The translations under genes were made by a program, and so were the position numbers. A model generated the notes under the pieces. That model searched no databases. It saw only the letters and a list, made by a program, of their open reading frames with translations, and was not told the origin of the DNA. This document shows, piece by piece, positions 35,870 through 60,776 of a stretch of 64,000 bases of DNA. Every line of letters begins with the position of its first letter. The stretch's first letter is position 1. The stretch is from NCBI RefSeq assembly GCF_018324385.1, contig NZ_AP019536.1:372001-436000 (forward strand). The letters run 5' to 3'. This DNA comes from Ferrigenium kumadai (GTDB lineage Bacteria > Pseudomonadota > Gammaproteobacteria > Burkholderiales > Gallionellaceae).

Positions 35870-35961
<92 letters not shown>

Positions 35962-36160: not shown

Positions 36161-37858
36161 TTACGCGGTGGGTGCGAAACCGAATAATTTTCGTTGTTCG
36201 TTCCAGTCAATGGGGAGGGGGAGGTTCTGTTTGAGCTTATCCAATGTCAGAGAGGCTGGCTGGGTGCCTTCGAGAATGGCCTGAACGATATCGGGTGCCA
36301 GAAAGCTACGATAGACGACCCGGGTGACATAGGAACTAGTGACACCTTCTGCATCCGCGATTTCCTGAACGCTTTTCGCATTACCGGAAGTCAATCGTCC
36401 GAGCCAGTCGTGTGCCTTGGCGATAAGTTGTATCAGCCCCTGATCCGGAGCTATCCTTTGTGGTGCGTTCTGCCCCTGAATGATTAACCGCATTGCCAAA
36501 CCGCAGCGGCGAACTTGCGCCGGGATGGTTAGCTCGCGAGGGGACAGTTCAGATTCTCTGGCCGATGCTGAGTTTGCTAGAAACAACGTTGTTGGGCTGA
36601 GGGCGATGCGCACTTCACTGTTTGCGATTGTGACTCTGCTAACCAGTTTCTGCACTATCTGGTATCGGTTCCCGGAAGGATTTTCTAGTTCTGAAATAAC
36701 TTGTTGAGCATGAATCAGGATGCCTTGCACTGCCGCGTGATCAATCCGGCCAAGTGAATCGAGCATGGCAGATGAATCGCTCAGCCAGTCGCATAAGCTG
36801 TTTATCACCAAGGTTTCGATTTCCTGCGCGGGCAGACGAATGCCATTGGGTGCATTTTCCCGGTTGGATATGACTAATGTTTCTGACACGTAGTAACGAA
36901 AGCGTTTGCTCTTCTTCTGGCTGTGGGAGGGAAGTAAGCGATGTCCATGTTCATCGTAGAGCCGTCCGGCGAGCAAGCTGTCTGACGGGGTAGATCTTCG
37001 TTGATGATGTCCTTGGCGATTCTCACGCAACTGGTTCTGGACGGCATCCCATAGCTCCTGATCGATGATGGCGGGATGTTGCCCAGGGAAATCCTGGTCC
37101 CGATGCACGATCCGGCCGATGTATACCGGGTTGGCTAGAATCTTATAAAGCGCGCCCCGACTGAAGTGGCATCCTCCATACGACTTGCCTGTTTTGCTGG
37201 TGCGGAGCGGCGTTCTGATGTTGGAGGTGATGAGTTCTTGCTGCAGCGACCAAACACAGCCCAATGCCAGATAGCGCTGATAGATGGTTCTGACTAAAGC
37301 GGCATTGGGTTCATCTATCGCGAGGGTACGTTCCTGCCCTTTGTAGCCTAGAGGAGGGACGCCACCCATCCACATTCCCTTTTGCTTTGAGGCGGCGATC
37401 TTGTCCCGGATACGTTCTCCAGTTACCTCCCGCTCAAACTGCGCAAATGACAACAACACATTCAAGGTGAGTCGCCCCATCGAGGAGGTCGTATTGAATT
37501 GTTGCGTCACCGACACGAAGGACACGCCACGCCCATCAAACCGTTCGACGATCTTTGCAAAGTCTGCAAGGGATCTGGTTAGCCGATCTACCTTGTAGAC
37601 GACTACAACCTGAATTCGCTTGCTGTCGATGTCATCCAGCAATTGCTTCAGGGCTGGCCGATCCATATTCCCGCCGGAATAGCCTCCGTCGTTATAGTGG
37701 GTCGGTATGGTTCGCCAGCCTTCATGCTGCTGGCTCAAAACGAAAGCCTCGCAGGCCTCCCGTTGGGCATCTAAGGAGTTGAATCCTTGTTCCAGGCCTT
37801 CCTCGGATGATTTGCGGGTGTAGATTGCGCAATTGATCGTTTGCCGACGCGAGCTCAT
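36161..37858 (-). CDS. Large serine recombinase (resolvase/invertase family)
   Basis: A 565-residue site-specific recombinase. The resolvase domain (about 10-150) begins CAIYTRKSSEEG with the catalytic Ser of the YTRKS motif, then YNDGGYSGGNMDRPAL and VVVYKVDRLTRSLADF. A recombinase domain (about 160-285: GGVPPLGYKG, YKILANPVYIGRI) and a zinc-ribbon region without clear CxxC pairs follow. The ATG at 37858 overlaps the DUF2924 stop and is preferred to 37891. Probably moves or moved the island, but large serine recombinases rarely use tRNA ends. Confidence 0.9.
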   Translation of the reverse strand: MSSRRQTINCAIYTRKSSEEGLEQGFNSLDAQREACEAFVLSQQHEGWRTIPTHYNDGGYSGGNMDRPALKQLLDDIDSKRIQVVVVYKVDRLTRSLADFAKIVERFDGRGVSFVSVTQQFNTTSSMGRLTLNVLLSFAQFEREVTGERIRDKIAASKQKGMWMGGVPPLGYKGQERTLAIDEPNAALVRTIYQRYLALGCVWSLQQELITSNIRTPLRTSKTGKSYGGCHFSRGALYKILANPVYIGRIVHRDQDFPGQHPAIIDQELWDAVQNQLRENRQGHHQRRSTPSDSLLAGRLYDEHGHRLLPSHSQKKSKRFRYYVSETLVISNRENAPNGIRLPAQEIETLVINSLCDWLSDSSAMLDSLGRIDHAAVQGILIHAQQVISELENPSGNRYQIVQKLVSRVTIANSEVRIALSPTTLFLANSASARESELSPRELTIPAQVRRCGLAMRLIIQGQNAPQRIAPDQGLIQLIAKAHDWLGRLTSGNAKSVQEIADAEGVTSSYVTRVVYRSFLAPDIVQAILEGTQPASLTLDKLKQNLPLPIDWNEQRKLFGFAPTA

Positions 37859-38232
37859 TTCTTGATTCCGAAGAACACCGGGCCGGACCATGGTGTGCCG
37901 GTAATGGCCCTAGCGATTGCGCTCAGGCTTTTCCAGTGCTTCCCAGCGTAGGAGTAGCCTTTCTCCAAAACCATCACTTGGTGAGTTTCGCCTTGCCAGA
38001 CGCGGATCAGGCGCGAGCCGACGACAAGCGGCTGAGAGGGGCCTTTGCGAAGCTGTCGACGATGTGATCCGGTAAGCCCGCCTTGTGCATCAGCTTGTAT
38101 TCTCCAGCCAAGCGCTTGTCGCATTAGCATCTCTCGACTATTGAGAGGAGCCGGGTGGCCGAATACCTCCTGCCACCGCAGAATCAATGCTCGTCGATCC
38201 ATTGCCATCAGTTCGGCGAGCTGGGCTTTCAT
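37855..38232 (-). CDS. DUF2924 domain protein
   Basis: A 125-residue basic protein with the DUF2924 layout: RRALILRWQEVFGHPAP, LNSREMLMRQALGWRIQA, then PGSRLIRVWQGETHQVMVLEKGYSYAGKHWKSLSAIARAITGT. The C-terminal half looks like a small DNA-associated fold. It is locked by 4-bp overlaps to DUF3489 upstream and the recombinase downstream, a cassette seen repeatedly in proteobacterial prophages and islands. The function is unknown; recombination directionality or DNA binding is a guess. Confidence 0.85.
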   Translation of the reverse strand: MKAQLAELMAMDRRALILRWQEVFGHPAPLNSREMLMRQALGWRIQADAQGGLTGSHRRQLRKGPSQPLVVGSRLIRVWQGETHQVMVLEKGYSYAGKHWKSLSAIARAITGTPWSGPVFFGIKK

Positions 38233-38621
38233 GCTTGTGCCTGCTTGATGATCCGGTACCGCCGGGTGCCATCGGAAGCTAATTCTGAGATTACATTCAG
38301 GCTGAGGCGTTTCTTTAACACTCCGCTGATGACGCCACGGATGGAGTGAGCTTGCCAGCCGGTGGCTTCTATCATCTCGGTTATGGTCGAGCCTTTTCCC
38401 TGCTTCATCAGGGCGATGAGCCGATCCTGCTTGCTTGATGGTGGCTCTGAGACGATGGGTGCCTTCTTGCGGGGGGTGGCGGGTTTTGTTTTTGTGGGGG
38501 CAGATGAGGCGGAAGCGAGGAAAGCAGGGATTTCAAGCTTGGCCGCTTTGTTTTTGGCTGGTTGCGTCTGTTTGCCGGGCTTGGAAGCGGCTGCTTTGGT
38601 TGCAGATGGGGCTTTTGTCAT
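38229..38621 (-). CDS. DUF3489 domain protein
   Basis: A 130-residue protein. The ATG at 38621 is chosen because of its ribosome-binding site (aaggagac) although the frame is open to 38810. The N-terminal 70 residues are Lys/Ala/Pro-rich and disordered; the C-terminal part is a winged-helix-like DUF3489 (SKQDRLIALMKQGKGSTITEMIEATGWQAHSIRGVISGVLKKRL). The first gene of the recombinase cassette, likely DNA-binding. Confidence 0.85.
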   Translation of the reverse strand: MTKAPSATKAAASKPGKQTQPAKNKAAKLEIPAFLASASSAPTKTKPATPRKKAPIVSEPPSSKQDRLIALMKQGKGSTITEMIEATGWQAHSIRGVISGVLKKRLSLNVISELASDGTRRYRIIKQAQA

Positions 38622-38818
38622 GATTGTCTCCTTGTTTATCCGGCGCGAAAGTCGCGGCGGTGAGCAAGTAACGCTCTGAAGGCGGAACACATCAAGTCTT
38701 TCGTGCATGCCGGCAGATGCAGCTTTGTGTGGCTGCAAATCGGCGGCACCTTGTGTTCTGGTCAGGCGATTGATAGGCTCCGAACCTTGCTGAACGTAAA
38801 CCACAGGCACCTAAGGTA

Positions 38819-40291
38819 ATGAATTCCCCGTCTGATTTTGAGCATTACGCTGACTCGCTCTCCGAAATCGAAGCGTCGCTGAGGGCGCTGGGCGCAGACA
38901 AAGCTATCCTGAAAATTCTGCCGCGCAATGCCAATGATAAAAATCAGATTTACTTCGCCAGCAGCTTTAGTTCGCTCTATAACAATTTTGACCTGACACT
39001 GGCCGAGCGCGGGGGCAGCACCAGCCAGACCAAGTCCCGCTCTGCGCCGGGCAGTTGTATTCCGGAAGCCGTCTTCAACCGATTTTCATGGGTTAAAGCC
39101 GATGGCTCTCTGATTCAGGCAAAGAACGTTAAGGTCATCGTATATACCCAGTACCCCGAAGCCCGGCTGTCGGGATTTCAGACTGTGGAAAACACAATGC
39201 CACATTCGCTTTCTGTGGCCTATACCAAAGAACATCCGGAAACAATGCGGCTACTGGTACTGGCACGCCTGCCTGGCGGGGCATGTCTCGGGCTGATGTA
39301 TCTTGATGTGTCGCAAAGTCTCCTTGACGAAATTACAGCACTGCCTGGACTGGACGGGTCAAGAGTCTGCAAGGTTTTGGAGATCAGTACCGGCAATGCA
39401 GAGAAGCTGTTCACTCAGTTGGCGCAGATCGTCTCTCGCCCGATGAAAGGCTGTCGTCTGGATGCCGCCGGAAATACCCTTCCGTTCACTGGCACACAGG
39501 TATGCGGATACACACTGGAACATGCCTTGGGTATCATTCCGAATGCGGCAAAAGACGGTGATATTTACGGCATCGAACTTAAAACGCATACGCAGGTGAA
39601 AGCCACGCTGTTCACGCCAGAGCCGGATTTTGGTCTGTATACCGAGAGCTTCGAAGCGTTCATGCGCAGTTATGGTTATGAAATGAACGGCGCATTCCGG
39701 GTCACCGGCATTCACCGGGCCGGCGTGCGTTGCGATAAATCCGGCCTGACTTTAAAAATCCGTGAATACCACACAGCCGAATCCGAATGTGACGGAACTG
39801 ACTGGATCCGGGATGCAAAAGGTGACAAACAGCCTTTTCCGTACGACCCGATGACCCCACTGACCACAAAGCTGGGGGCCGTGGAGGTTGTGCTGGAAGA
39901 TGACAACAGTTTCGTTGCCGCAGGCTGGACACTGGAACGTCTGATGAACAACTGGGGCGTCAAACACAATGAGGTGATTTATATCCCGGCCACCAAGACA
40001 GCCAATCCGGATGCGGAGGAAGCCAGACAAGGCTTCGAATATGTGGTGATTTTCGAACCGACCGTAATTTGGTGCCGGGAAACTTCGGCAGAACATCTGC
40101 TGAATGCGATCAGCAGTGGGGTGATCTATCTGGATCCTGCCCCGAAATTTGTGCCGGGAGATCCATCGAAGAACAAGCGTCGTGCTCAGTGGAGGGTGAA
40201 TGACATCACCAAGGCAGTGGCAGCTCTGTATCAGCATACCGAGGTGCTGCGTATTTCCGGAGAGGTCAGCGATCAGCCACCATCAATCTGA
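38819..40291 (+). CDS. MvaI/BcnI-like restriction endonuclease
   Basis: A 490-residue protein with a C-terminal domain resembling MvaI/BcnI monomeric endonucleases: GYTLEHALGI (about 230-239), then D248-x4-E253-L-K255 (DIYGIELKTHT), the D-x4-ExK catalytic pattern of that family. The N-terminal 200 residues are an extra domain, of unknown function and larger than in MvaI itself. It starts 8 bp after the divergent frame end of the recombinase cassette. MvaI and BcnI cut CCNGG-type sites; a Dcm-type methylase for CCWGG lies 10 kb away. Its own partner methylase is not adjacent. Confidence 0.75.
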   Translation: MNSPSDFEHYADSLSEIEASLRALGADKAILKILPRNANDKNQIYFASSFSSLYNNFDLTLAERGGSTSQTKSRSAPGSCIPEAVFNRFSWVKADGSLIQAKNVKVIVYTQYPEARLSGFQTVENTMPHSLSVAYTKEHPETMRLLVLARLPGGACLGLMYLDVSQSLLDEITALPGLDGSRVCKVLEISTGNAEKLFTQLAQIVSRPMKGCRLDAAGNTLPFTGTQVCGYTLEHALGIIPNAAKDGDIYGIELKTHTQVKATLFTPEPDFGLYTESFEAFMRSYGYEMNGAFRVTGIHRAGVRCDKSGLTLKIREYHTAESECDGTDWIRDAKGDKQPFPYDPMTPLTTKLGAVEVVLEDDNSFVAAGWTLERLMNNWGVKHNEVIYIPATKTANPDAEEARQGFEYVVIFEPTVIWCRETSAEHLLNAISSGVIYLDPAPKFVPGDPSKNKRRAQWRVNDITKAVAALYQHTEVLRISGEVSDQPPSI

Positions 40292-42432: not shown

Positions 42433-45400
42433 TCAGCTCGGCGACGAAGGGCAGATGGTTGAGAAGTCGCAGCGAGTGCAATGGTGACCTACGATCGAAC
42501 TGGTTTCTCCCGAGAGCAGCCGTATAGCAGCTCCATACGACTTCGTTGCCTCAATCCGCTTAGCGCCTGGAACGTCGTCCACCTTTTCGGAAAGAACGTA
42601 GTTCAATGTCATCTTCTTCGAGCCGGAGACATTGAGCCCCGGGACTAGGGGCTTAAGCACCGTGGACAGGTCTGCGACTCGTCTGCGTGCGAACCTCACC
42701 ATCGCATATTCAAGAGCATAGCTACCGTTGATTGCAAAACCCCAAGGCATCTGCACGGTGACACCCCCGACGACAGCAGAAGGCTCATAGAAACTACCGC
42801 CGCGCACCCGTGCGGATTTTATGAGTGCGGTACCGCGAGCCATCGCGTATTGAGCGTCCCTCCAAAGCGTAGGGTCCTCAACAGCCGAAGGCAACTTCCG
42901 AGTGGTCCACGCAGCTGAAAGCGATGCCTCTGATGAGCCCATGGCTCCGGATGCCACCGCCTTAAGTGCATCGAGCACTGCTCTACGGGCTCGAATCGAG
43001 ACATCAACATCTGCTTCGCTTTGGAGCCCCAATATCCGGGAGTACCAGTAGTTGAGCGAGCACATCACGTAAGAGTCAAAATCCTCGAAGCTCAGCGTGC
43101 TTGGTACAACGAACGCCTTTGTCGTGGCTACCTTCGCCGCTTTTAAAACTGGGCCGCCAAAAATTTGAGGCGTGAACTTTTGCGGGAAGTGAGTAAACTG
43201 TGGAGCAAGAGTGTGGTCGCCGAACTTATTGTCTTGGTAGACGTAAAGGTGACGCTTCGCACGAGAGACAGCAACATATAGCAAGTTGTTCCGTTCGACC
43301 GCGGACTCGCTCTCGTACTCCTCTATGCTGCTGCCCAATGCCTCAGGTGGCACTATGTCGAGGATGCCTTCTGGTCGCCAGCTAGGTTTCTGTCCACCGT
43401 AGTTGTCAGCGGTGACGTACGCCACATGCACCGCCTCAAATTCAAGGCCCTTGCTCCCATGCACTGTCATAAGACGCACGCCGTCAAGGCTTCCAGCCTC
43501 AGGAGGAAGCTCGCGCTGAACTTGGCTGTCTCCAATGCGCTGACGTAGGCGTTGTCGCATCAGGAAGCGAGAAAGCCGCGCTTCTTTTATCTCGCCATCA
43601 CCGTTGCGAACGGCGTAGGCGAACTGCCATAAGGCGATTCGCTTGACCCAGGCTTGGACGGACACGTCCGCAGTAGGCGGGAGACAAAATCGCCTCTCGA
43701 GCAGTATGTCGCATACAAAGTCCCAAGGATTTGAATTGTGGCTATGTTTGCCAATCAACTGACGCAAGTTCGCGACAACGACTTGCCCAGCCGAGGAGAG
43801 CCCGGGCGGAGGAGAGTGCAGCCACCTACCGCGCTGACGCGCCACATCGGCCTCGGTCGCATGTAAAAGCACATTGACGTCGCTCATGGACATGCTCAGT
43901 CCAGCATTGCCAAAAAGGCCAATCAACGCCTTAGGACGGCGCTCTACTAGCAATTGCATTAGGCAGAGCAACTGCTTTATCTCTGTGCGTTGCGCCAGTT
44001 CTCCGATATGGATGACTGGAATCCCCTGCCCTGCTAAGAGCTCCGAGGCTCTTTGCACATCCGAAGCGCTCCGACAGAGGACTGCCTGTTGGCCAAACGA
44101 CACACCTTGATGACGCAGAGCCTGAATGTTCTGCAGAACTGAGCTCAGGATGGCGTCTCGTTCGGAGCACGTTACGACGACTGGTTTTTCTCCGCAATTT
44201 CCCTTTGTCGCCATCACGTCATCTAGCGGCATTGCCGACTCCAGCATGTGAATGCGCCCCACATGCTGCGTGAGGTCAACAATCTCTTGCGTACTTCGAC
44301 GATTGTTGCTGAGTGGATAGCGCTGAATCTTCGTTCCGTCAGCATGTGCTTTGAACACCGTGTCGAATTTTAGTAGGCTCTTGAGCGATGCTCCGCGCCA
44401 GTGGTGGATGGCCTGACGTACATCTCCAACCACCCAGATGGATTTCTTTTGTGCGAGCTGACGCAGCATCTCGACCATCGCTTGGGTCACGTCCTGATAC
44501 TCATCAACGAGCACGTACTGGAACCGGTCAACGAGTTCGGTGAACGGCGCGCGGCCAGCCTTGAGCGCGACGGCTGGTTTCGCTATTAGGTCAACAAAAT
44601 CGACTGACTTGCGCTCGGTTAACAGGACCTCGTAAAGCTCGTAAATGGTTGCCACATCCAAGCGTTTACGTTGCAGTTCAAGGTCTGGCACCGGATGGCT
44701 TTCGACGAAGCTTCGATAAGCAGCGGGAGTGACGAGTTCCTCTTTGAGGCGTGTTATGCCTTCAATAACAGGACCCAGCCACTCGTAAGGGTCTTCAACG
44801 CGCAAAAAGTTGGTCAGGGTGACGCGAGGGAGGGCCGCGACCAGCATCGTCATGGACGAGAGAAGGTCCGACACGTGCAGTTCGGCTTCCAGTCCAAAGT
44901 GTTGGTGGTACTTGCGCAGGAACTCGAGACCGAACGAGTGGAAGGTTCCAGCCCAGATCTCCGTGGCTTCGCTGATGCCAGAGCTTCTGAGCCGCTCCAC
45001 CAGTTCGAGGGCAGCCTTGTTAGTGAACGTCAGAACAAGAATCTGACTGGGGTGAACCTTTTTCATATCCACCAGGTACTTGACCCGATGAATCAGGGTA
45101 GTCGTCTTGCCGGTGCCTGGGCCGGCCACTACGTTGGCGGCGCGCTCTTCAGCCATTGCCGCAGCCAGCTGGTCTGGGCTGGGAGCACTCAACGAGGTAG
45201 GGGGGAACGCAGCCTCTGGCAACAGCAGTGCATCGAGCATCTGTTGACGGACGAACTCGAGCGGAATACCAAGCAGCTTGCCAATCTCAGTCGGTCCCTT
45301 CCCAGCCACTGCAAGATTCCGCGCCACGTCTCGGGGCAATAGAAGTTCCCGCGCGAAGACGTTGGCCTGAAGTTCCTGGCGCTCTCGAGCACCATATGCC

Positions 45401-45765
45401 TCCACCTTCATGGCTCCCGGCGAGCCCTCGCTGCCAAATAGTGTGCTCAGGTGGGCTACGGTAAGGGGAGCCTTCGAGCCATCAAGGAAGAAGTGGCCCA
45501 GCTCGTGTGCGACCAGCCCGCAGAACTCGTCGCCCCACTCATGCACACTCGTGCTGAGGTAGATGAACTGTTGGTCCCGCTGAAGGACTGCACTTCCTCC
45601 GCCCAAGTCTGCGTAGGTTGTAGCCACTTGCTCAATTGCGATATTAAGGACCTTCTCAACTTGGAAAAGGAGATCCTTCGCAGAAATTGCGGTATGAGCT
45701 AGCCCCGGAGCCAGCTTCGCTCTGGTTGCATGTGCTTCCTCTCGAGCTCGCTGGAATGGATTCAT
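42433..45765 (-). CDS. ImmA/IrrE metallopeptidase-UvrD helicase fusion with C-terminal Cys4 domain
   Basis: A 1110-residue multi-domain protein. Residues 1-185 are an ImmA/IrrE-type zinc peptidase (H87-E-L-G-H91, third ligand probably E131 in ERQELQANVFARELLLP). From about 195 an SF1 UvrD/Rep helicase follows: Walker A GPGTGKTTT (K220), LTFTNKAA, Walker B DEYQD (421-425), and HGSKGLEFEAVHVAYV, ending near 870. The last 220 residues resemble the PD-(D/E)xK/Fe-S end of AddB or Cas4, with C902 and C1096-x2-C1099-x5-C1105, but no clear D and ExK. It shares a 4-bp overlap with its upstream partner. The combination suggests a defence helicase with a protease sensor. Confidence 0.85.
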   Translation of the reverse strand: MNPFQRAREEAHATRAKLAPGLAHTAISAKDLLFQVEKVLNIAIEQVATTYADLGGGSAVLQRDQQFIYLSTSVHEWGDEFCGLVAHELGHFFLDGSKAPLTVAHLSTLFGSEGSPGAMKVEAYGARERQELQANVFARELLLPRDVARNLAVAGKGPTEIGKLLGIPLEFVRQQMLDALLLPEAAFPPTSLSAPSPDQLAAAMAEERAANVVAGPGTGKTTTLIHRVKYLVDMKKVHPSQILVLTFTNKAALELVERLRSSGISEATEIWAGTFHSFGLEFLRKYHQHFGLEAELHVSDLLSSMTMLVAALPRVTLTNFLRVEDPYEWLGPVIEGITRLKEELVTPAAYRSFVESHPVPDLELQRKRLDVATIYELYEVLLTERKSVDFVDLIAKPAVALKAGRAPFTELVDRFQYVLVDEYQDVTQAMVEMLRQLAQKKSIWVVGDVRQAIHHWRGASLKSLLKFDTVFKAHADGTKIQRYPLSNNRRSTQEIVDLTQHVGRIHMLESAMPLDDVMATKGNCGEKPVVVTCSERDAILSSVLQNIQALRHQGVSFGQQAVLCRSASDVQRASELLAGQGIPVIHIGELAQRTEIKQLLCLMQLLVERRPKALIGLFGNAGLSMSMSDVNVLLHATEADVARQRGRWLHSPPPGLSSAGQVVVANLRQLIGKHSHNSNPWDFVCDILLERRFCLPPTADVSVQAWVKRIALWQFAYAVRNGDGEIKEARLSRFLMRQRLRQRIGDSQVQRELPPEAGSLDGVRLMTVHGSKGLEFEAVHVAYVTADNYGGQKPSWRPEGILDIVPPEALGSSIEEYESESAVERNNLLYVAVSRAKRHLYVYQDNKFGDHTLAPQFTHFPQKFTPQIFGGPVLKAAKVATTKAFVVPSTLSFEDFDSYVMCSLNYWYSRILGLQSEADVDVSIRARRAVLDALKAVASGAMGSSEASLSAAWTTRKLPSAVEDPTLWRDAQYAMARGTALIKSARVRGGSFYEPSAVVGGVTVQMPWGFAINGSYALEYAMVRFARRRVADLSTVLKPLVPGLNVSGSKKMTLNYVLSEKVDDVPGAKRIEATKSYGAAIRLLSGETSSIVGHHCTRCDFSTICPSSPS

Positions 45766-46799
45766 AACCTTTCATGCTCTAGGTCGAGAAGGGCCTTGGT
45801 TTGGTCCGCCGGGAGGTTTAAGGATTTCACAGCCACGCCCCATGGAGTAGGAGATTTAGAGACTTCGGGTTTCCCGTTCTCCGCCTTGAAGGCGGGAACC
45901 ATTCTGTTGTTAAACGAGCGCTTGAACAGCGTAGTCAGCAATGCTTCTGGAGCTTCAAAGATGCTCTCAAGCCTTTTGAGAAGGGCCTTCGGTGCTCGTA
46001 CGTTGCCTACAAGAACGCCGGAAAGCAGGGAGGCCGCATAGGAACCTAGTCCTACTTGAGCTACCAGCGAACGTATAGCAGCCCCCTTGCAATTGGAAAC
46101 TTTAGCCTCGAGAGATACCAGTTGCTCCTGTAAAACGAGTCCATGAGCTATGAATAGGGCGCCAAGCTCAGAGGCAGACTTTCCGTACTCCTTTGCTGTA
46201 GCCCTGATACGAGCCGCGTGCCCAGGCTCTAGCCTTAGCATCACTTGCTCAGAGTCTGAGCTCTGCCACCCACGGAGCTCGCTTCCCAGCGTCTCAAAGA
46301 GCGATTTCGAGCTGACAAAGAGAGACTTATCTACAAAGTCCTCAAAGCCGAATACCGCAATTCTTCGAGAGACCTCAGCAAAGCTTGTCCTTTGCGAGTC
46401 AGCAAGGGAAACAAGGTGGTCCTTTAAGCGAGTTGACATCGTTACGCCAACGGTGATCTGTCGAGTCTTTGAGTGGAACCGCTCGGCGGTCATATGCGAA
46501 GTCAATTTAGTTCCTCCCGTTGAGGAAACATTAGCGAGCATTGGATGATCCGAATCTAAGTAGGGTTGACTAGTCAGTATTGAAGCAAGTTCGATAAGGG
46601 CCAAGCGAATTGCTTCGTTGGAGGATGAGGCTGATGTTGATCGTTTCCCAACGCCAGGAACTTCGAATCTGCAAGCTACTCTGCTCATGCCTTCTTGTTC
46701 AAGGCTGGCCTCTTTAAGAATGGTAAAGTAACCATCTGAAAGCCGGGATAAGAGTGTTTGCCCTTGCGCAAGGTTTACCCGGTCAAGAGTGGGATTCAT
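45762..46799 (-). CDS. Double ribbon-helix-helix-like partner protein of the helicase fusion
   Basis: A 345-residue protein I do not recognise as a whole. ATG 46799 is chosen for its ribosome-binding site (ggaggg, 6 nt away) over 46835. Two segments look like RHH folds: about 113-150 (QITVGVTMSTRLKDHLVSLA, then TSFAEVSRRIAVFGFEDF) and about 184-222 (EQVMLRLEPGHAARIRATAK, then KSASELGALFIAHGL). The C-terminal part (about 235-300) is helical. It overlaps the helicase start (45762-45765), so the two are made together. It may be a repressor cleaved by the ImmA-like domain, as in ImmR/ImmA pairs; that is inference. Confidence 0.6.
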   Translation of the reverse strand: MNPTLDRVNLAQGQTLLSRLSDGYFTILKEASLEQEGMSRVACRFEVPGVGKRSTSASSSNEAIRLALIELASILTSQPYLDSDHPMLANVSSTGGTKLTSHMTAERFHSKTRQITVGVTMSTRLKDHLVSLADSQRTSFAEVSRRIAVFGFEDFVDKSLFVSSKSLFETLGSELRGWQSSDSEQVMLRLEPGHAARIRATAKEYGKSASELGALFIAHGLVLQEQLVSLEAKVSNCKGAAIRSLVAQVGLGSYAASLLSGVLVGNVRAPKALLKRLESIFEAPEALLTTLFKRSFNNRMVPAFKAENGKPEVSKSPTPWGVAVKSLNLPADQTKALLDLEHERL

Positions 46800-46857
46800 G
46801 AGCGCCCTCCATGGCAGTTGGAGGCGCATGTTCACCCCCTTAAGAAAAGTGTAGTAC

Positions 46858-46877
46858 TATATCAACAATATATCAAC
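46858..46877. promoter_or_regulatory. Phased direct repeat in divergent promoter region
   Basis: Two identical 9-bp units (tatatcaac) at 46858-46866 and 46869-46877 are spaced 11 bp apart, one helical turn, between divergent starts at 46799 and 46891. Such phasing is typical of operators for RHH dimers. A palindrome tagtacta (46853-46860) abuts it. Confidence 0.55.
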
Positions 46878-46890
46878 CCCAAAGAATACT

Positions 46891-47925
46891 ATGACAGAGC
46901 CGGAACTGGCTGTGGCCATCAAGACCGCCGTAGACGCATGGATTCAGGCTAAATCGCCTGATCAGTGGCTTGTTGACCTTAACAATCCTGCTGAGCTAAG
47001 CGCCATGTTGGCCGCAACTGTCGAGAAGGTGCTGGTCAATGACGGCTTTACCTTGGGGGCCGCGCGGCAAGTCGTGCTGGGGGCTCCGTACTTTCACATG
47101 AAGCAAGTGTTCGTCCCGGCCGACCTTCCGGATACACCGGAGTCGTTTACTCCTGTGCCTGACGGGGCCGGTTCCGTGGCCGGTCGCGCAGCCGCGCTGG
47201 CTGTACATGGTTTTCTAGGTAAGGAGACAGTCTCTTACGGGTCGGAGAACGATGGCGCCCTTTTCGTGAACCTTGTGCCGCTACCCGGCGAGGGCAGGTT
47301 CGCTGACAAGTCTAAAAGCGGGATGCGAGGTCATACGGAAGCCGTGACCTTTCCATTCAGTGGAGATGTCGACGCACATGACCCGCGAATCGCGCCCTCA
47401 CCCGACATATTGACCTTGGTGGGGCTGCGCAACCCGAATTCAGTACCGACGACTGTGATGGTGTTGGAGGATGTGCTTGCCGAGCTGTCGCCAACCGATA
47501 TCGCCGAACTGAAAAAAAGTCAGTATTCCTTAACGGCCCAGTTGACCTTCATCTCCGGTATGAAGGAAATCTTGGGGGACGTTCACACCGCCAATGATGA
47601 GCCGGTGCTGAAGGACGTTCCTCCACTGACTATCGTTCGCTATAGCCACAGCTCGGTTCTGCCGACTGATGAGGGCGGTGCAGCACAGACAGCTTCGGAC
47701 AATTTCGAGGCCGCGTGCAATAAAGTGGTCATCCGAGTCGTAATTGAACCTGGCGATGTGCTAGTCGTCAGCAATCGGCTTTGCTTGCACGGGCGCGGTG
47801 TCGTAGGCGAGGGTGTCGGAGGTGAGGCAAGATGGCTGCTTCGAACCTACGGGTTGGACACATCAGACTTGGACTCGAGCCGGCGGCATCTGGATGGCCG
47901 CCCATCTTACGTCCTCTATCCCTGA
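46891..47925 (+). CDS. Clavaminate synthase-like Fe(II)/2-oxoglutarate oxygenase
   Basis: A 344-residue protein of the TauD/clavaminate-synthase (AsnO/VioC-like) group. The metal motif is H148-T-E150 (RGHTEAVTFPF), with the distal His H300 in NRLCLHGRGVV and the 2OG-binding Arg in EARWLLRTYGL (R314 or R318). The segment ILTLVGLRNPNSVPT also fits the AsnO pattern. Known members hydroxylate free or carrier-bound amino acids. It is divergent from the RHH-like/ImmA-UvrD pair across 91 bp. No biosynthetic neighbours are visible, so its substrate here is unknown; nucleic acid or a peptide is a guess. Confidence 0.75.
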   Translation: MTEPELAVAIKTAVDAWIQAKSPDQWLVDLNNPAELSAMLAATVEKVLVNDGFTLGAARQVVLGAPYFHMKQVFVPADLPDTPESFTPVPDGAGSVAGRAAALAVHGFLGKETVSYGSENDGALFVNLVPLPGEGRFADKSKSGMRGHTEAVTFPFSGDVDAHDPRIAPSPDILTLVGLRNPNSVPTTVMVLEDVLAELSPTDIAELKKSQYSLTAQLTFISGMKEILGDVHTANDEPVLKDVPPLTIVRYSHSSVLPTDEGGAAQTASDNFEAACNKVVIRVVIEPGDVLVVSNRLCLHGRGVVGEGVGGEARWLLRTYGLDTSDLDSSRRHLDGRPSYVLYP

Positions 47926-49826: not shown

Positions 49827-50255
49827 CTAAATTTTATCGGAATTACTTTTTCCCAAGCTTGGGCGTATTAAATCCAATATCCCTTGCCCGCAAGCTTTTA
49901 CTTCACATTCCCAAACTACAATCACGCTCCATCCAAGCTGGATTAGCTGAGCAATATGTTCCCGGTCTCTTGCTTGGTTTGTTTCAATCTTTTCCTGCCA
50001 GAACTTGGTGCGCGTTTGGGGTAGCTTGAAAAATTTACAGTCATGGCCGTGCCAGAAGCAGCCGTGAACGAAGATCACCGTGCGGTATTTTGGCAGAACG
50101 ATGTCCGGTTTCCCGGGCAGCCGTTTATCGTGCAAGCGATACCGGAATCCGGCTGCATGGAGACTTTTGCGGACGAGCAGTTCAGGCTTTGTGTTTTTTG
50201 ACCGGATCGCCCGCATGTTTTTTGAGCGAACCGCCGGGCTGTGCACGTCTGCCAT
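49827..50255 (-). CDS. vsr: Very short patch repair endonuclease Vsr
   Basis: Nicks 5' to T in T:G mismatches made by deamination of 5-methylcytosine in Dcm sites. The 142-residue protein has [17 protein letters not shown], the catalytic Asp in GKPDIVLP, and the zinc/active-site segment [14 protein letters not shown]. Its start lies 74 bp within the 3' end of dcm in another frame, the same arrangement as in E. coli dcm-vsr. Confidence 0.95.
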
Positions 50256-51627
50256 CTGAACTCCGTTTCTGCTGCATTTTCTTGCGGGCTTTGATTGCGG
50301 CCATGATGTGGGGTTTCATGAGCTTGGCTGCGGCCTCAAAAACCGGCACTACCACGGAGTTTCCAAACTGTTTGTATGCCTGCGTATCGGAAACAGGGAT
50401 GCGGAATTCTGCCCCCCTTGGGCTATCGTAACCCATCAGTCGTGCGCATTCCCTTGGGGTCAGACGACGCGGCCGGTTCTTAATGTTTTCCGGGTGACTG
50501 AAATCCTGCGCAGGATCAAATCCGCGGTCAATGAGGATTTCAGAGCCGTCCTTGTAATACCTTGCTGACAGCGTGCGGGTGATGTCTTTGCCGCTGACGA
50601 GCCCATACCCAAAGCCGTTTCCCTTGGCTTTATGCTTGATCGAATAATTGAACAGATACTCCCAGAGCTTAGGAGTCAGGATGTATTTGTCATCAACCTT
50701 CTCTTCGAGGATGTCGCTCAGCCTGGGCTTTTTCTTCGGGAATAATTGTTTAATGCTCCTCAGTGAAAAATCTTCCTGACTTCCTAGGTCGCGCCGAAAG
50801 CCTACCAGGACAATCCGTTCGCGGTGCTGCGGAACAAAATGCTGGCCATCAATGATTTTCGGATCATTTGCGCCCAAGACCTCTGAGTCAGAAACCCAGT
50901 AGCCAAGTTCATCCAGTGTTTCCATGATCACCTTGAATGTCCTGCCTTTATCGTGGCTCTTCAGGTTTTTCACGTTTTCCAGAAGGAATGCGGCCGGGCG
51001 TTTAACTTCAAGAATGCGGGCCACATCGAAGAAAAGGGTGCCCTGGGTTTTGCACTCAAAACCATGAGCGCGGCCAAGTGCATTCTTCTTTGAAACACCA
51101 GCGATAGAAAATGGCTGACACGGGAATCCTGCCAGCAGAACATCATGATCCGGGATCATCTTCTGAATATTTAATGCTGCCTCTTCCGCTGATATTTCTT
51201 CCCTGTGGCTTAGTGTTACTTCGCGGATATCCTCGTTAAAGGAATGGAAGGCCGGATCTGCATAGTGATTGGCCTTGTAGGTTCTCAGCGCCTGACTGTT
51301 CCATTCGCTGGTAAACACGCATCGTCCGCCAGCTGCTTCAAAGCCACGCCGGATACCTCCGATTCCAGCAAAGAGGTCGATGAAATCAAATTCATAACCG
51401 GGGTGGTTGACGGGCGGTGCCGGAAGCAGCTTTTTGAGGGCCTCAAGTTCATGATGGCTGAGGCGCGGTGATGCTTTTCCATTCAGCCAGCGATTAATTG
51501 TCTCCCGGCACCATTCGCCCGGGGAGACCTCGTTCAGATAGCTGCCAATGAACTTCTGGTCGTAAATTTCCAGCAGGGTTTTCAGGAGGGCCAAGTCTTC
51601 TTGCTGAGGATTCATCGCGGTGTTCAT
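50182..51627 (-). CDS. dcm: DNA (cytosine-5) methyltransferase, Dcm-like
   Basis: C5 methyltransferase closely similar to E. coli Dcm over the whole length, so CCWGG specificity is likely. Motifs: [16 protein letters not shown] (I), GFPCQPFS (IV, catalytic Cys), [13 protein letters not shown] (VI), [15 protein letters not shown] (VIII), then [19 protein letters not shown] and [10 protein letters not shown] (X). An N-terminal helical region of about 70 residues is also Dcm-like. ATG 51627 is taken as start (alternatives TTG 51636 and ATG 51615); none has a good ribosome-binding site. An inverted repeat sits over the start region. Confidence 0.94.
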
Positions 51628-51632
51628 CTGGG

Positions 51633-51663
51633 TCAATTGTGTGACGAATTATCACTCAATTGA
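51633..51663. promoter_or_regulatory. Inverted repeat at the dcm start
   Basis: tcaattgtgtg (51633-51643) and cactcaattga (51653-51663) are reverse complements at 10 of 11 positions with a 9-bp spacer. It covers the region just upstream of the dcm start, so could be an operator, for example for autoregulation by Dcm's N-terminal region. Confidence 0.5.
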
Positions 51664-52098: not shown

Positions 52099-52107
52099 GA
52101 GGGAGTG

Positions 52108-54039
52108 ATGGCTGCAGACTGGGTATATCCGGAAGTAACGCCGTATCAGGTTCAGGGCAGAGATCTGTCAGAAGATAATTTCGCGCAGGAGGACCGGACG
52201 AGTCTGGAAATTCTGATGCGGGAAGTTCTCCAGAATCCGCTTGATGCGCGGGCATCTGATAATGCCGGCCCGGTCAGAGTCACACTTAAAATTCTTCAGC
52301 CAGGTAATTTTGACGCAGACTATCTGGCCAGCCTGCTGGGTGGTGAGTATTCGAAGCGTCTGGAGGCGTCCGGCGGCGAGCCTCTTCCGGACCTTGCCAT
52401 GAGCTCTGTTCTGGTAATCGAAGACTTTGGCACAACAGGCCTGCAGGGACGCTGGGATGATCAGAATGCTGACGGCCCTGAAGAAAACTGGAACGCATTC
52501 TGGTTCCGGGAAGGGGAAGGCGCCAAGTCGGCGACAGGCAGTAATGGTCGTGCCGGGCAGGGAAAAATTACCTACTACCGGATTGGTGCTGCCCGGGCAG
52601 TATTTGGATTTACCGTCCGCAAGTCAGACGGGCAGCGGCTTTTGATGGGACGCAGTGCTTTTCGCAGGGTCTACCCGTATGGCGGATCAAAATTCAACCG
52701 TCACTCATTCTGGTGTTGCGGAAGTGAACAGCCGCTTCCGGTTACTGATGACGAAGAAATTACGGCTTTCCAGGATGCATTCGGGCTTTCGCGCAAGAGC
52801 GAGCCGGGGCTAAGTCTGGTGATTCCATTCCCGGCTGGTTTTGATCCGAAAGAGGCCGTCCGTACGCTTATCAGCGATTTTTACTACCCGATAGCCTGTG
52901 GCAACCTAGAGCTCTCACTTGCCAGCATGGATATTGACTCATCCAATGTCGACACCATCGCAGTACGTGAGTTTTCAGATGAAACTGCCTACAAGAGGAA
53001 GTCCAGCTTTACCAAGGGCTTCAGAAATCTTGTCCGGAGCGCAATCGATGCCAAAAATAATGGGGATAAGTTTGTCGAGCTGAAGCCCGGCTGGGACAAA
53101 ACGCCAACACTGAAGGAGGATTCCCTGCCGGAAGGAGCGCTTGAGACGCTCCGGGCCGCGATGGAGAACGGGAAGCGTATTTCAGTCCGCTGCCCGGTTA
53201 CAGTCCGCCCGAGAAAGACGGAGTTAATTCAGACTTGGTTTGATGTTCATATCGAAATTCCTGAAGATCTTGCGCGGGCTGAAGAGGCATACATCCGCCG
53301 TGATTTGCTGATCGGTTCAGAGAGTCATCTTGCTGCCAGTGCATATCTGCAGAAGGCACGGGCACTTACGATTATCAGTGACAGTAACCTGTCTGCGTTT
53401 CTCGCCGATGCCGAGGAGCCGACGCACCTCAAGTGGAATGGCAGCCGTCCTCGTCTGGCCGAGGATTATTTAAATCCGCAGGCAACACTCCGCGCGGTGA
53501 GGAATGCGGCTCCCCGTCTGCTTGCACTTGTATCAAACGGAATGGTCAGGCGCGATATGAAAGCTCTGGCTAAATACTTTACGCGGCATACAGATGAAGG
53601 AAAACGTCATGCTGCGGGCGGCAATGTTAAGCCGGGTGGCGGAACCCCTCCTAATCCTGATATCACAGCGCCAAAAGTACGGAAGCCTGTAAAAATTGTG
53701 ACAGGTACGGACAGGGTGCGGGTTCTGCCAAATGGCAGTTCAGCGCTGACGGCGGAGGGACTGCCGATATCCTGTGGGCTTGAGCTGGCATACGAAGGTC
53801 TTGATCAGGATCCGTTCAAGGCTTATGACCCATTCGATTTTGATCTTGCAGATGAGAGCGTGCACCAAGTCACGACTTCCGGTGCCACCATAACAGGCAG
53901 GCAGGGAAACAGGATTAATTTCGACATCACCGAGCCGGAATTCGTCCTTGAGGTGCCGGGATTCGATCCGAACATCCGCCTGCGTGCAAGGCTTAACTAT
54001 ACGGAGAAGAGCAATGGGACGTCTGTCAGCGAGGAGTAA
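52108..54039 (+). CDS. GHKL ATPase of MORC/MutL-like type
   Basis: A 643-residue ATPase. ATG 52108 follows a strong ribosome-binding site (aggaggga); GTG 52105 is possible. The ATPase (about 30-290) has N box E39-V-L-Q-N43-P-L-D46-A, G1 box E105-D106-F-G-T-T-G and G2 box G147-R-A-G-Q-G152. The middle part lacks a clear nuclease, and the C-terminal 110 residues are beta-rich (NRINFDI, LEVPGFDPNIRLRARLNY). GHKL proteins of the MORC/paraMORC class occur in restriction systems; that context, divergent from dcm, is matched here. ATP-driven clamp or remodeller is the expected role. Confidence 0.8.
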   Translation: MAADWVYPEVTPYQVQGRDLSEDNFAQEDRTSLEILMREVLQNPLDARASDNAGPVRVTLKILQPGNFDADYLASLLGGEYSKRLEASGGEPLPDLAMSSVLVIEDFGTTGLQGRWDDQNADGPEENWNAFWFREGEGAKSATGSNGRAGQGKITYYRIGAARAVFGFTVRKSDGQRLLMGRSAFRRVYPYGGSKFNRHSFWCCGSEQPLPVTDDEEITAFQDAFGLSRKSEPGLSLVIPFPAGFDPKEAVRTLISDFYYPIACGNLELSLASMDIDSSNVDTIAVREFSDETAYKRKSSFTKGFRNLVRSAIDAKNNGDKFVELKPGWDKTPTLKEDSLPEGALETLRAAMENGKRISVRCPVTVRPRKTELIQTWFDVHIEIPEDLARAEEAYIRRDLLIGSESHLAASAYLQKARALTIISDSNLSAFLADAEEPTHLKWNGSRPRLAEDYLNPQATLRAVRNAAPRLLALVSNGMVRRDMKALAKYFTRHTDEGKRHAAGGNVKPGGGTPPNPDITAPKVRKPVKIVTGTDRVRVLPNGSSALTAEGLPISCGLELAYEGLDQDPFKAYDPFDFDLADESVHQVTTSGATITGRQGNRINFDITEPEFVLEVPGFDPNIRLRARLNYTEKSNGTSVSEE

Positions 54040-57104: not shown

Positions 57105-58616
57105 TTACCTCCGCTGGGGGAGAGGCGGCATACGCGGCGGCCCCTTCGGGTTCCGCATCGGATGCGGAACCTGCTTCCGTGCCGAACAGACACCTCCATT
57201 CTGAGGAGTGGTGACACCCAAAACCACAGGTGAATGTCGCCGCCTGTCCGGGTCTTCGACCCAGCTGAGATACTGACTGAGGGCGTCGACCTGATCGTCG
57301 TGAGGGGAGGTAGGAAACGAACACATTTCCTCGAAAAAATCGCTGAGCCAGTTTCCGGCATTCGGCAATAAGACATTGCCTCCGTTCAGCAAATGAAGGA
57401 CTGCCTCCAGACGTTCAATTTTGCTTTTCGTCGGGCGGGGTATGGAGCAGATGGTTAGTCTGTGCTCCCGCAGTGCCGAAATCATGGCCGTGCCCAATGC
57501 AGCATTCTCGATCAGGACAGAGTTCGGCGTATACTGACCGGCCAGCCGTAGCAGATCATTCTGAAGTTCGGCGAAGGCCGCCCGCTTGCGCAGTACATGA
57601 GCGAGATAGTGGTTGACTCCGTCTGTCCGGATCACGAGGACGCACGAATAGCTGGAGGTTTCACCGGTTGTCTGCCCGAAATCGCAACTGAATATCACCT
57701 TGTGTGCGTTCAGCGGTACGTTGTCGTATCGTCCAAACCAATCTGCCTTGACGATTCCGGAGTCCAGGAGAATTGGCGCTTGCTGGTACTGAGCCTGGAA
57801 GACATGTGCCGGCGATTCCCGGCGCAATACTTCAACTTCTTCCGCTGTATAGGATTGCGGGTCGATGATATCGCCTGCCGGCCGCCGCCATTCAAACTTC
57901 CCTGCCCGGTAGACCGTATCGGCCTCGGCCACCAGAGGTACGACCAAATGGCGGTAGGTAGTCCGGCCCTGAAGGTGGCCGCAAAGATCTTCAGCATGAA
58001 GTCGCTGCATCACGATCAGGATCTTGCCTTCTGATCGGTTATCGAGGCGCGAGGTGATTTTGCCGTCAAAAAGCGTATTCACGTTTTTACGCTCCACGCC
58101 TGAATAAGCGTCACTGGCATCGATTGGGTCGTCGAGGATGATCCAGTCACCCCCGTGGCCCGTGAGGCCACTTCCCACGGAGGTGGCGAGAACACCTCCG
58201 CCAGCCGTCGTCTTGAAATGAAGTGTCCCTGCGAAATCAGGCTGCAGCGCAGTTCCGGGAAACGCCTCCTGATACCATTTCGACTCGATAATTTGGCGGC
58301 ATCTGTACGCAAGGGTGTGCACGAGGTTCTTGTCGTGGCTGATGACGATGATTTTGGTGGACGGATCAAGTCCCAATAGCCATGCCGGGAAGCAGATGGA
58401 GCAGATGAACGACTTCAGCGTCCGAGGCGGGAGATTGATGATCTGCCGTCGAACGTCTCCCTCAGTCACCTCCTGCAGGGTTTCGCAAATCAGTCGGATG
58501 GCCTGCGTGGGACGCAAGCCATCTTTTACCTCTTCCCGGTCAAATGCCTGAAAAACGAACGCCTGCAGGTTGCGCCGCAGAATCGCAGACAATACTTGGG
58601 TGTTTGCATCACTCAT
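57105..58616 (-). CDS. Phage terminase large subunit
   Basis: A 503-residue TerL-type packaging motor. The ATPase half has a Walker-A-like loop NLPPRTLKSF (about 60-69), IVISHDKNL, and Walker B DWIILDDPIDASD; the nuclease half has the acidic residues in FSCDFGQTTGE, LIENAALG and DDQVDALSQYLSW. It overlaps the DUF5681 gene by 8 bp. No portal or capsid gene follows, so it is either a remnant or a satellite-type part. Confidence 0.88.
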   Translation of the reverse strand: MSDANTQVLSAILRRNLQAFVFQAFDREEVKDGLRPTQAIRLICETLQEVTEGDVRRQIINLPPRTLKSFICSICFPAWLLGLDPSTKIIVISHDKNLVHTLAYRCRQIIESKWYQEAFPGTALQPDFAGTLHFKTTAGGGVLATSVGSGLTGHGGDWIILDDPIDASDAYSGVERKNVNTLFDGKITSRLDNRSEGKILIVMQRLHAEDLCGHLQGRTTYRHLVVPLVAEADTVYRAGKFEWRRPAGDIIDPQSYTAEEVEVLRRESPAHVFQAQYQQAPILLDSGIVKADWFGRYDNVPLNAHKVIFSCDFGQTTGETSSYSCVLVIRTDGVNHYLAHVLRKRAAFAELQNDLLRLAGQYTPNSVLIENAALGTAMISALREHRLTICSIPRPTKSKIERLEAVLHLLNGGNVLLPNAGNWLSDFFEEMCSFPTSPHDDQVDALSQYLSWVEDPDRRRHSPVVLGVTTPQNGGVCSARKQVPHPMRNPKGPPRMPPLPQRR

Positions 58617-59055
58617 GATCTATCTCCTTTTTCGGTGCGGACTCTTCCCGCATGGCAGGTTTTTTAGGGATTTCCGCTGGCGTTGCTCCATGCTGGCGCA
58701 GGAAGTCGTCCAGAATCTGTTCCTCTGTTCTGGAAAGCGGGCGTGTGTCGGTTGCGGCGAGTTCTGGCACGATATATTTGTCGACCATCGTGATCAGCAC
58801 TGTGGCTGCCCGCGTGTCGCCCTTGAGTGCTTTGGCGACCAAGGCTTTGACCAGTGCGCGTTGCTTGGAGATCGATTTTTCCTGATCTCCTTCCCGCACA
58901 CGGATTCTTTCGCCGAGTTCGTCCTTCAGGTCGCTCGAAAGATTTCGGGTGCCCTTGGGCCTGCCTTTGGAATTGCCAGACTGGCCGGGCTGAAAACGGC
59001 TATGCTTGGGCGGCTTTGCATAGCCGACGTCATAGTTAGGATTTTTGGCTGTCAT
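58609..59055 (-). CDS. DUF5681 domain protein, small-terminase-like
   Basis: A 148-residue protein with the DUF5681 N-terminal motif HSRFQPGQSGNSKGRPKGTRNLSSDLKDEL (residues 18-47), then a helical part (QRALVKALVAKALKGDTRAATVLITMVDKYI) and a charged tail. By position before terL it probably serves as or beside the small terminase, an inference shared with many such cassettes. It starts 3 bp after the methyltransferase stop. Confidence 0.85.
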   Translation of the reverse strand: MTAKNPNYDVGYAKPPKHSRFQPGQSGNSKGRPKGTRNLSSDLKDELGERIRVREGDQEKSISKQRALVKALVAKALKGDTRAATVLITMVDKYIVPELAATDTRPLSRTEEQILDDFLRQHGATPAEIPKKPAMREESAPKKEIDHE

Positions 59056-59058
59056 GGC

Positions 59059-60414: not shown

Positions 60415-60776
60415 AGCGATGTTTCCTTTTGCATTCCGGCGGAACCGGCGACGAGGTCTTATGTGGAAGAGATCTCCGTACCACCTAATCCGGAGAACCA
60501 AGTTCCGACCTCGCCGCCCGATCACGCAGATTTAGGCTGGCGACTAGCCGAATGAAACAACGTAAAGTTAAGTTTTTGACATGTTTTGACTCGGGGCATA
60601 CGCCGCGCAGGCGTGCAGTCCCCTCACGATACGAAGTCAGATCTTGTGATTATTAGAACCCAAGGACAAGAGGTAATTCGAGTCGAGACATGCGCTTACG
60701 TCACTACGGTCAGTAGCCAACCAGCCATATGCAATATGGTTAAGCTTATCTCCTTGAATTACTCATGGAGGTAGGT
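60415..60776. other. Divergent intergenic region with long stem
   Basis: About 360 bp between the methyltransferase and the HTH gene. gcgacgaggtc (60448-60458) pairs with gacctcgccgc (60507-60517) at 10 of 11 positions, with an inner ctccg/cggag pair, which could fold the 5' leader of the minus-strand gene. The rest shows no gene. Confidence 0.45.

Follow-up and report, generated by a model that had tools for sequence, protein, structure and literature searches.

What do three adjoining genes of Ferrigenium kumadai do, when one encodes a zinc peptidase fused to a helicase, the next a partner protein and the third an oxygenase? The genes lie in a stretch of 64,000 nucleotides (contig NZ_AP019536.1, positions 372,001 to 436,000), hereafter the window. 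P1 (42433..45765, minus strand, 1110 residues) combines an M78 (ImmA/IrrE) zinc peptidase, a UvrD-type superfamily 1 (SF1) helicase and, at its C-terminus, a four-cysteine domain of PD-(D/E)XK-like type; P2 (45762..46799, minus strand, 345 residues from the ATG at 46799, or 357 if translation begins at the GTG at 46835) is its partner and predicted repressor; and P3 (46891..47925, plus strand, 344 residues) is a predicted Fe(II)/2-oxoglutarate (2OG) oxygenase of the clavaminate-synthase-like, amino-acid-hydroxylase type. An initial annotation, made from the sequence of the window alone, proposed these genes as a candidate new defence system. The answer that we favour, with modest confidence, is a self-contained stress switch in which P2 would be the repressor, P1 the sensor-protease and P3 the output.

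The three genes are a conserved module beyond chance. As the initial annotation had supposed, they co-occur: a tblastn search of 89 loci found homologues of P1, P2 and P3 together in 21 loci besides the window (class A), with P3 divergent and P2 directly 5' of P1 in all 21 and with P1 proteins 40-69 percent identical to that of the window. The 89 loci comprise the best 80 of 277 relatives, obtained by scanning genome contigs with the P1 peptidase domain, and nine plasmid loci chosen from at least 40 matches. They divide into 21 loci of class A, 59 that carry ubiquitin-like conjugation genes (class B) and 9 unassigned; the 80 relatives contributed 21, 50 and 9, respectively, and the plasmid loci all belong to class B. 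Some rows are near-copies, and since the best 80 are those nearest to the window's own peptidase domain, class A is over-represented. In the tblastn search (E 1e-3) that assigned the class labels, each family was represented by one or two reference proteins; among the unassigned loci, L056, L057, L067 and L069 end at most 650 bases from the match and L083 is a fragment. Apart from P2 and P3, no gene is common to the class A loci among their 145 nearest open reading frames (ORFs) of at least 110 residues, the exception being one related pair between two loci; the module is therefore taken to consist of P1, P2 and P3.

The spread of the module is sporadic. Of 369 genomes of the class, 2 have the P1 peptidase domain (F. 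kumadai and G433), and P3 likewise matched 2 of the 369; at the level of the phylum P3 matched 2 of 398. The P3 counts include the organism's own genome, and the other matches are weak. Class A genomes have one strong P3 orthologue each, adjoining the module, and a single genome has a second, weak one. A search for P2 across 101 genomes of relatives matched the organism's own genome alone, and no P2 relative was found in plasmids at E 0.01. No relative was confirmed in viral contigs searched for the P1 peptidase domain and P3; no match in phage records covers 80 percent of P1, and the five listed of 86 such matches touch the helicase part only.

The description of P1 as a fusion of an ImmA/IrrE peptidase, a UvrD helicase and a four-cysteine C-terminal domain is upheld by Pfam, which places Peptidase_M78 at residues 65-175 (E 3.3e-7), inside a peptidase domain of residues 1-185 (45211..45765, minus strand), and UvrD-helicase at residues 197-471 (E 1.7e-56). 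H87, E88, H91 and E131, which include the HEXXH motif of M78 zinc peptidases and which we take to be metal-ligand residues, are each present in 81 of 82 homologues, and the Walker lysine, DE box and motif-VI arginine of the helicase are intact in all 82. Equally invariant (82 of 82) are cysteines 902, 1096, 1099 and 1105, which sit in a nuclease-like domain (about residues 885-1110; 42436..43113, minus strand) recognized as PD-(D/E)XK-like by PDDEXK_1 matches in 8 of 10 members (best E 3.1e-11). The spacing of the cysteines, which resembles that in Cas4/AddB-type nucleases, suggests that the domain may hold an iron-sulphur cluster. A scan of residues 905-1090 considered the D, E, K, H, Q and N positions with at least 70 percent conservation in class A, in class B or in the complete set of homologues. 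Across the complete set none of them exceeds 30 percent conservation, and the family-wide active site appears to have been lost; class A alone keeps E917, D921, D964 and D970 (90-100 percent). An active nuclease at the C-terminus was considered and judged unlikely, because no catalytic residues are conserved family-wide. A helicase fused to an M78 peptidase would be a natural means of reading single-stranded or stalled DNA.

P2 and P1 overlap by four bases (ATGA), which makes the translational coupling claimed by the initial annotation plausible. The ATG at 46799 is the better start of P2, because it coincides with the start of the ORFs in L016, L019 and L022 and is closely preceded by GGAGGG; it leaves a gap of 91 bp to the start of P3, in keeping with the 91-bp shared promoter region first reported. 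P2 itself matches no family in Pfam, PADLOC or NCBIfam. An AlphaFold2 model (mean predicted local distance difference test score, pLDDT, 84) contains two ribbon-helix-helix (RHH) units within one chain, at residues 125-242 (46110..46463, minus strand; residue numbers of P2 count from the GTG at 46835). Its best structural match is TraY of the F plasmid (9f0x_F; Z 11.9, root-mean-square deviation (rmsd) 2.9, 105 residues aligned), and single-chain Arc (1u9p) also matches (Z 8.4, rmsd 3.1, 84 aligned). The two RHH-like segments noticed in the initial annotation are borne out by this confident model and by Pfam RHH_5 matches in 3 of 22 P2 members (best E 8e-5). With its TraY-like tandem RHH, P2 is probably a DNA-binding repressor. 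TraY is a monomer containing both RHH units, according to PMC12117103; it differs from P2 in being a relaxosome protein, whereas P2 adds N-terminal and C-terminal partner domains.

The N-terminal domain of P2 was modelled as an alpha-beta-beta-beta-alpha fold with weak matches to double-stranded RNA-binding domains (Z 5-6). A HicB-type antitoxin was considered for it and rejected, there being no HicB among the five Pfam families matched by the 22 members at E 0.1. The C-terminal domain (residues 240-357; 45765..46118, minus strand) is predicted to consist of helix-turn-helix (HTH)-like helices, a loop that reads FKAENGKP in the window, and a helical hairpin. It is homologous to the class B partner proteins (hhalign probability 98.3, E 1.7e-14, with no shared rows), and a loop of the form [FYW]-[KRSN]-[ASGV]-x(1-4)-[KPRQ]-P precedes the hairpin in all 21 partner ORFs of class A and in 41 of the 59 of class B; many of the remaining class B partners have variants of the loop when inspected by eye. 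Since this domain accompanies the protease in both classes, it is a candidate for the region that P1 recognizes or cleaves.

The promoter region between P2 and P3 contains an 11-bp direct repeat, TGATAY-N5-TGATAY (46859..46875, minus strand), which is the predicted operator. The strict repeat is present in 21 of the 22 P2/P3 promoters of the window and class A (L021 lacks it), and the relaxed form TGATA-N6-TGATA in all 22; mononucleotide-shuffled promoters contain the strict repeat in a mean of 0.0015 of 22, and it is absent from the 68 other loci (1.19 Mb). It occurs once only in the 2.57-Mb genome of F. kumadai, at the P2/P3 promoter. The distance from the repeat to the aligned P3 start, at which several P3 homologues have no ATG, is 16-23 bases, and L030 has an extra copy at 8 bases. 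In the window the repeat is overlapped by a predicted sigma70-type promoter for P2-P1 (TTGATA, spacing of 17, TACACT; 46848..46876, minus strand), one such promoter being found against a mean of 0.2 in shuffled sequence. Eight Pseudomonas promoters (L029, L032-L037 and L044) keep the repeat, and their best -10 element in the P2 direction fits at just 1-3 of 6 positions; the repeat is thus more than a -35 box.

P3 has H148, D/E150, H300, R314 and R318 in 22 of 22 homologues; we take the first three to be the metal triad, R314 to be the 2OG-binding arginine and R318 to be the second of a conserved arginine pair. Together with its profile and fold, these residues bear out the earlier call of a clavaminate-synthase-like oxygenase. 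The profile is nearest to VioC/OrfP-type L-arginine beta-hydroxylases (E 8e-15), and the model has the double-stranded beta-helix fold of the AsnO/VioC/clavaminate synthase group, aligning with AsnO (2og7) at Z 25.7 and rmsd 3.1 over 297 residues; AsnO, CmnC, VioC and KDO1 match at Z 24-26, a range that becomes 21-26 with OrfP included. P3 thus shares with these enzymes the fold, the metal triad and the arginine pair. The mean pLDDT of the model is 82, and residues 132-151, with the first two metal ligands, are poorly modelled. The R-x-D motif of OrfP and NapI, whose aspartate presumably has a substrate-related role, reads R-[YF]-S-H in P3 (R250, S252 and H253 in 22 of 22), a replacement that makes free arginine improbable as the substrate. 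By profile and model P3 is closest to amino-acid hydroxylases, and it may hydroxylate an amino-acid-like substrate.

Among the relatives of P1 examined, ubiquitin-like company (59 loci) is commoner than the oxygenase (21 loci). Class B is defined by at least one ubiquitin-like conjugation marker beside a related protease-helicase; the members tested include multiubiquitin (PF14452), Prok-JAB, DUF7665 or DUF6527 proteins. A ThiF match is present in 55 of the 59 loci, two or more markers in 55 of 59, and the first marker starts at most 1.5 kb past the end of the P1 match in 56 of 59 (exceptions L009, L053 and L068). The assignments of L006 and L045 each depend on one unassigned protein, that of L009 on multiubiquitin matched 6.6 kb away from P1, and that of L013 on one match and the annotation of the record. 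A partner of about 200 residues precedes P1, and 46 of 59 loci have matches to a sigma-factor-like gene, with Sigma70_r4_2 in all four such proteins tested (L026 and L031 above the curated cut-off). We read these cassettes as Bub operons in the sense of the published authors. Eight loci (L007-L014) place the protease-helicase and ubiquitin-like genes on plasmids of Xanthomonas, Variovorax, Pseudomonas, Acinetobacter, Rhizobium, Mesorhizobium and Pseudohalocynthiibacter.

No locus among the 89 has both outputs at E 1e-3. No ubiquitin-like, E1-like or JAB gene was matched beside the module in the 21 class A loci, of which L019, L022, L023 and L027 have a downstream flank of less than 2.6 kb; DUF7665 is absent from all 22 class A genomes. 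Multi_ubiq was not found in the F. kumadai genome, a weak negative in that no control genome matched; the same search matched 4 of 6 class B genomes or records. A tree of P1 (82 of 90 proteins, 8 short or missing rows having been dropped), built by a quick method that gave long-branch warnings, does not resolve class A (20 loci and the window) as one clade: class B loci L024, L026, L031 and L048 nest inside it in this tree, and the starred branches force at least three changes between classes. These four have a sigma-like ORF upstream (confirmed by Pfam in L026 and L031 only) and partners of 205-238 residues that are not P2-like. Since nested class B loci carry the sigma-like gene and the short partner, exchange appears to have affected the DNA-binding part, the promoter and the output jointly, with P1 and the C-terminal domain of the partner held constant. 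This suggests that the P1 sensor is an interchangeable alarm part. In four Acidobacteriota loci (L049, L071, L080 and L084) the protease-helicase is accompanied by sigma-like and partner matches, and neither ubiquitin-like markers nor an oxygenase were found in the stretch; a third type of output is possible there.

How does the module compare with known systems? CapP is an M78-type peptidase without a helicase domain, and DdrO is an XRE-like protein that controls a damage regulon. According to published work, CapP is activated by single-stranded DNA and cleaves CapH (PMC13373217), PprI is activated by single-stranded DNA and cleaves DdrO (PMC10904395), and CapW or CapH and CapP accompany 219 of 544 Bub operons (PMC13373217). 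The module is like CapH and CapP in that the peptidase gene adjoins the gene of a DNA-binding partner, and Bub-like genes, an output of CapH and CapP, accompany the relatives of P1. It differs in that the P1 peptidase is fused to an SF1 helicase (UvrD, 197-471) and the four-cysteine domain, in that CapH is an HTH protein whereas P2 is modelled as tandem RHH with C-terminal helices that are only weakly HTH-like, and in that the output is a divergently transcribed 2OG oxygenase. PprI/IrrE with DdrO of Deinococcus shares the HEXXH peptidase, the logic of repressor cleavage and, if P1 acts as proposed, single-stranded DNA as the trigger, but PprI has a GAF-like domain where P1 has a helicase. Bub operons resemble the 59 loci in which relatives of P1 accompany at least one such cassette marker, but not class A, where no such gene adjoins the module in 21 of 21 loci. 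Gabija resembles the module through GajB, a UvrD-type helicase and the best PADLOC match of P1, and differs in the protease fusion, the missing GajA partner and the nuclease-like domain without a family-wide active site. Gabija membership, raised by these matches, was rejected, as no GajA-like gene belongs to the module.

The earlier statement that the set matches no described system agrees with the libraries and papers searched, in which no named system contains it. Among the top 10-20 papers listed per literature search, some searches matching hundreds or thousands, none points by title or start of abstract to an M78-UvrD fusion, to such a module or to a 2OG oxygenase as a defence gene; related papers or supplements may mention the fusion. 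In the available passages, PMC1779556 contains neither UvrD nor helicase, PMC11354881 does not contain helicase, PMC13373217 does not use the terms ImmA, metallo or helicase, and PMC5512222 has UvrD in a different kind of fusion. We read the module as resembling the CapH/CapP switch, except that its protease carries a helicase and its outputs are exchangeable.

The surroundings of the module were also compared with the remainder of the genomes concerned. The flanks of class A loci matched 180 PADLOC families in 145 ORFs (of 149, four long ones having been dropped) and the control 9 families in 125 ORFs (each of fewer than 890 residues, from one place elsewhere in each of 16 of the 21 genomes), a comparison that counts families rather than genes, related models piling onto one protein. 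The neighbourhood of the module is therefore rich in defence genes, in line with the initial annotation's proposal of a candidate defence system. GajA, GajB, QatA, Avs2, AriA, AbiTii and PD-Lambda-3_A are among the 25 families listed of 180, with GajA confined to 1 of the 145 ORFs; phage-type integrases account for 5 of 145.

In the window, the module sits in a stretch of lower GC content that begins near a tRNA-Ser (35870-35960). Adjoining the tRNA is a large serine recombinase gene (36161..37891, minus strand) at the low-coordinate edge of this stretch, outside the module, and with DUF2924 and DUF3489 genes it forms a probable integration module of a mobile island (36161-38810). No direct repeats of at least 22 bp were found in 35600-64000. 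An MvaI/BcnI-type endonuclease gene (38819-40291) lies on one side of P1-P3 and genes for a Dcm-type cytosine methyltransferase and a Vsr endonuclease (49827-51636) on the other, possibly parts of a restriction-modification set. Farther on are a protein matching the PADLOC candidate family PDC-M33A (52105-54039, E 2.1e-12), followed by ORFs of the same direction that match no Pfam family, and, at the distal edge of the island, an apparently phage-derived block (57105-60525, minus strand) with a Terminase RNaseH-like domain, a DUF5681 protein and an N6/N4 DNA methylase.

The stress switch would operate as follows. The tandem RHH of P2 would bind TGATAY-N5-TGATAY between the divergent genes and repress P3 as well as P2-P1. 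Abnormal or single-stranded DNA, arising from phage infection or damage, would be engaged by the SF1 helicase part of P1, and this engagement would license the M78 peptidase to cleave P2, probably within the conserved loop of its C-terminal domain; repression would then be lifted and the oxygenase made as the output. Sequence and models establish the conserved module, the repeat, the folds, the conserved residues and the company that P1 and a partner with the same C-terminal domain keep with ubiquitin-like conjugation genes in other loci; DNA binding by P2, its cleavage, the DNA trigger (single-stranded or otherwise), the substrate of P3 and a part in phage defence are inferred. The initial suggestion that the protease relieves repression fits the conserved C-terminal domain of P2, the operator, and what is published of CapP and PprI. 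Several observations weigh against the switch. The genomes of the 21 relatives hold 39 strict matches to the repeat, of which 21 are in module promoters (two in L030, none in L021) and 18 elsewhere, in 12 of the 21 genomes with 1-3 each, against one match for a reversed control pattern containing TAG, a triplet that may be rare in such genomes; the regulon may be wider in those 12 genomes, or the pattern may be unspecific. Class A loci share ancestry, so that the promoter count does not represent 22 independent events. The C-terminal domain of P2 has weak kinship to HTH repressors (HTH_31 in 3 of 33, best E 0.01) and no match in the PDB better than E 0.09, the four acidic residues kept in class A may give the nuclease-like domain of P1 a catalytic role, and nothing directly ties P3 to defence.

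Those acidic residues, together with the intact helicase motifs, the defence-rich flanks and GajB helicases as the best PADLOC matches of P1 (E 1.6e-54), would suit a Gabija-like arrangement in which P1 is itself the effector, a helicase attacking foreign DNA that the M78 domain activates or that processes itself through it, with P2 and P3 as regulators. We consider this quite improbable, since SF1 helicase similarity is by itself generic, the PD-(D/E)XK-like domain lacks family-wide catalytic residues, class A loci have only P2 and P3 in common besides P1, and P1 looks like a controller in the 59 ubiquitin-like loci (55 with ThiF). The initial annotation had also allowed that the protease activates the helicase; with no GajA-like gene and no family-wide nuclease site, a helicase that serves as part of the sensor looks likelier than one that the protease activates.

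The same switch, carried on mobile islands, could instead serve a general response to DNA damage or stress, with P3 making or detoxifying a small amino-acid-derived metabolite. The nearness of P3 to free-amino-acid hydroxylases (AsnO, VioC and KDO1) favours such a role, but defence families are far commoner in the flanks of the module than in other parts of those genomes, and the P1 peptidase domain and P3 are each confined to 2 of 369 genomes of the class, the own genome included; we hold this alternative to be rather unlikely. That P3 acts within the sensing circuit, tuning repression by oxygen- or 2OG-dependent hydroxylation of P2 or P1, would account for its invariant divergent pairing with the repressor gene and for the single strong orthologue that adjoins the module in each class A genome. 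It is highly improbable, because the fold and conserved arginine pair suit a small, amino-acid-like molecule better than a protein substrate, and no P3 match occurs in the ubiquitin-like loci.

The stress switch accordingly remains our preferred account, and a bolder extension of it can be proposed only tentatively: P1 would be a portable sensor of DNA damage or phage placed before swappable outputs, with ubiquitin-like conjugation and amino-acid hydroxylation serving different branches, the oxygenase would be a new defence effector, and the DNA-binding half of the regulator, the promoter and the output would be exchanged as a cassette. As such an effector, P3 would hydroxylate a metabolite that the phage needs or an amino acid in free or charged form, and the exchanged DNA-binding half would be either a sigma-like gene with a short partner or an RHH repressor. 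The parts of the module are known and their assembly is unusual: the protease incorporates a motor, and the output appears exchangeable. What the P1 sensor reads is a directly testable question. If the proposal is true, the replacement of a ubiquitin-like cassette by a single oxygenase would show how the outputs of defence systems are exchanged, and an enzyme of the amino-acid-hydroxylase type may represent a new effector chemistry.

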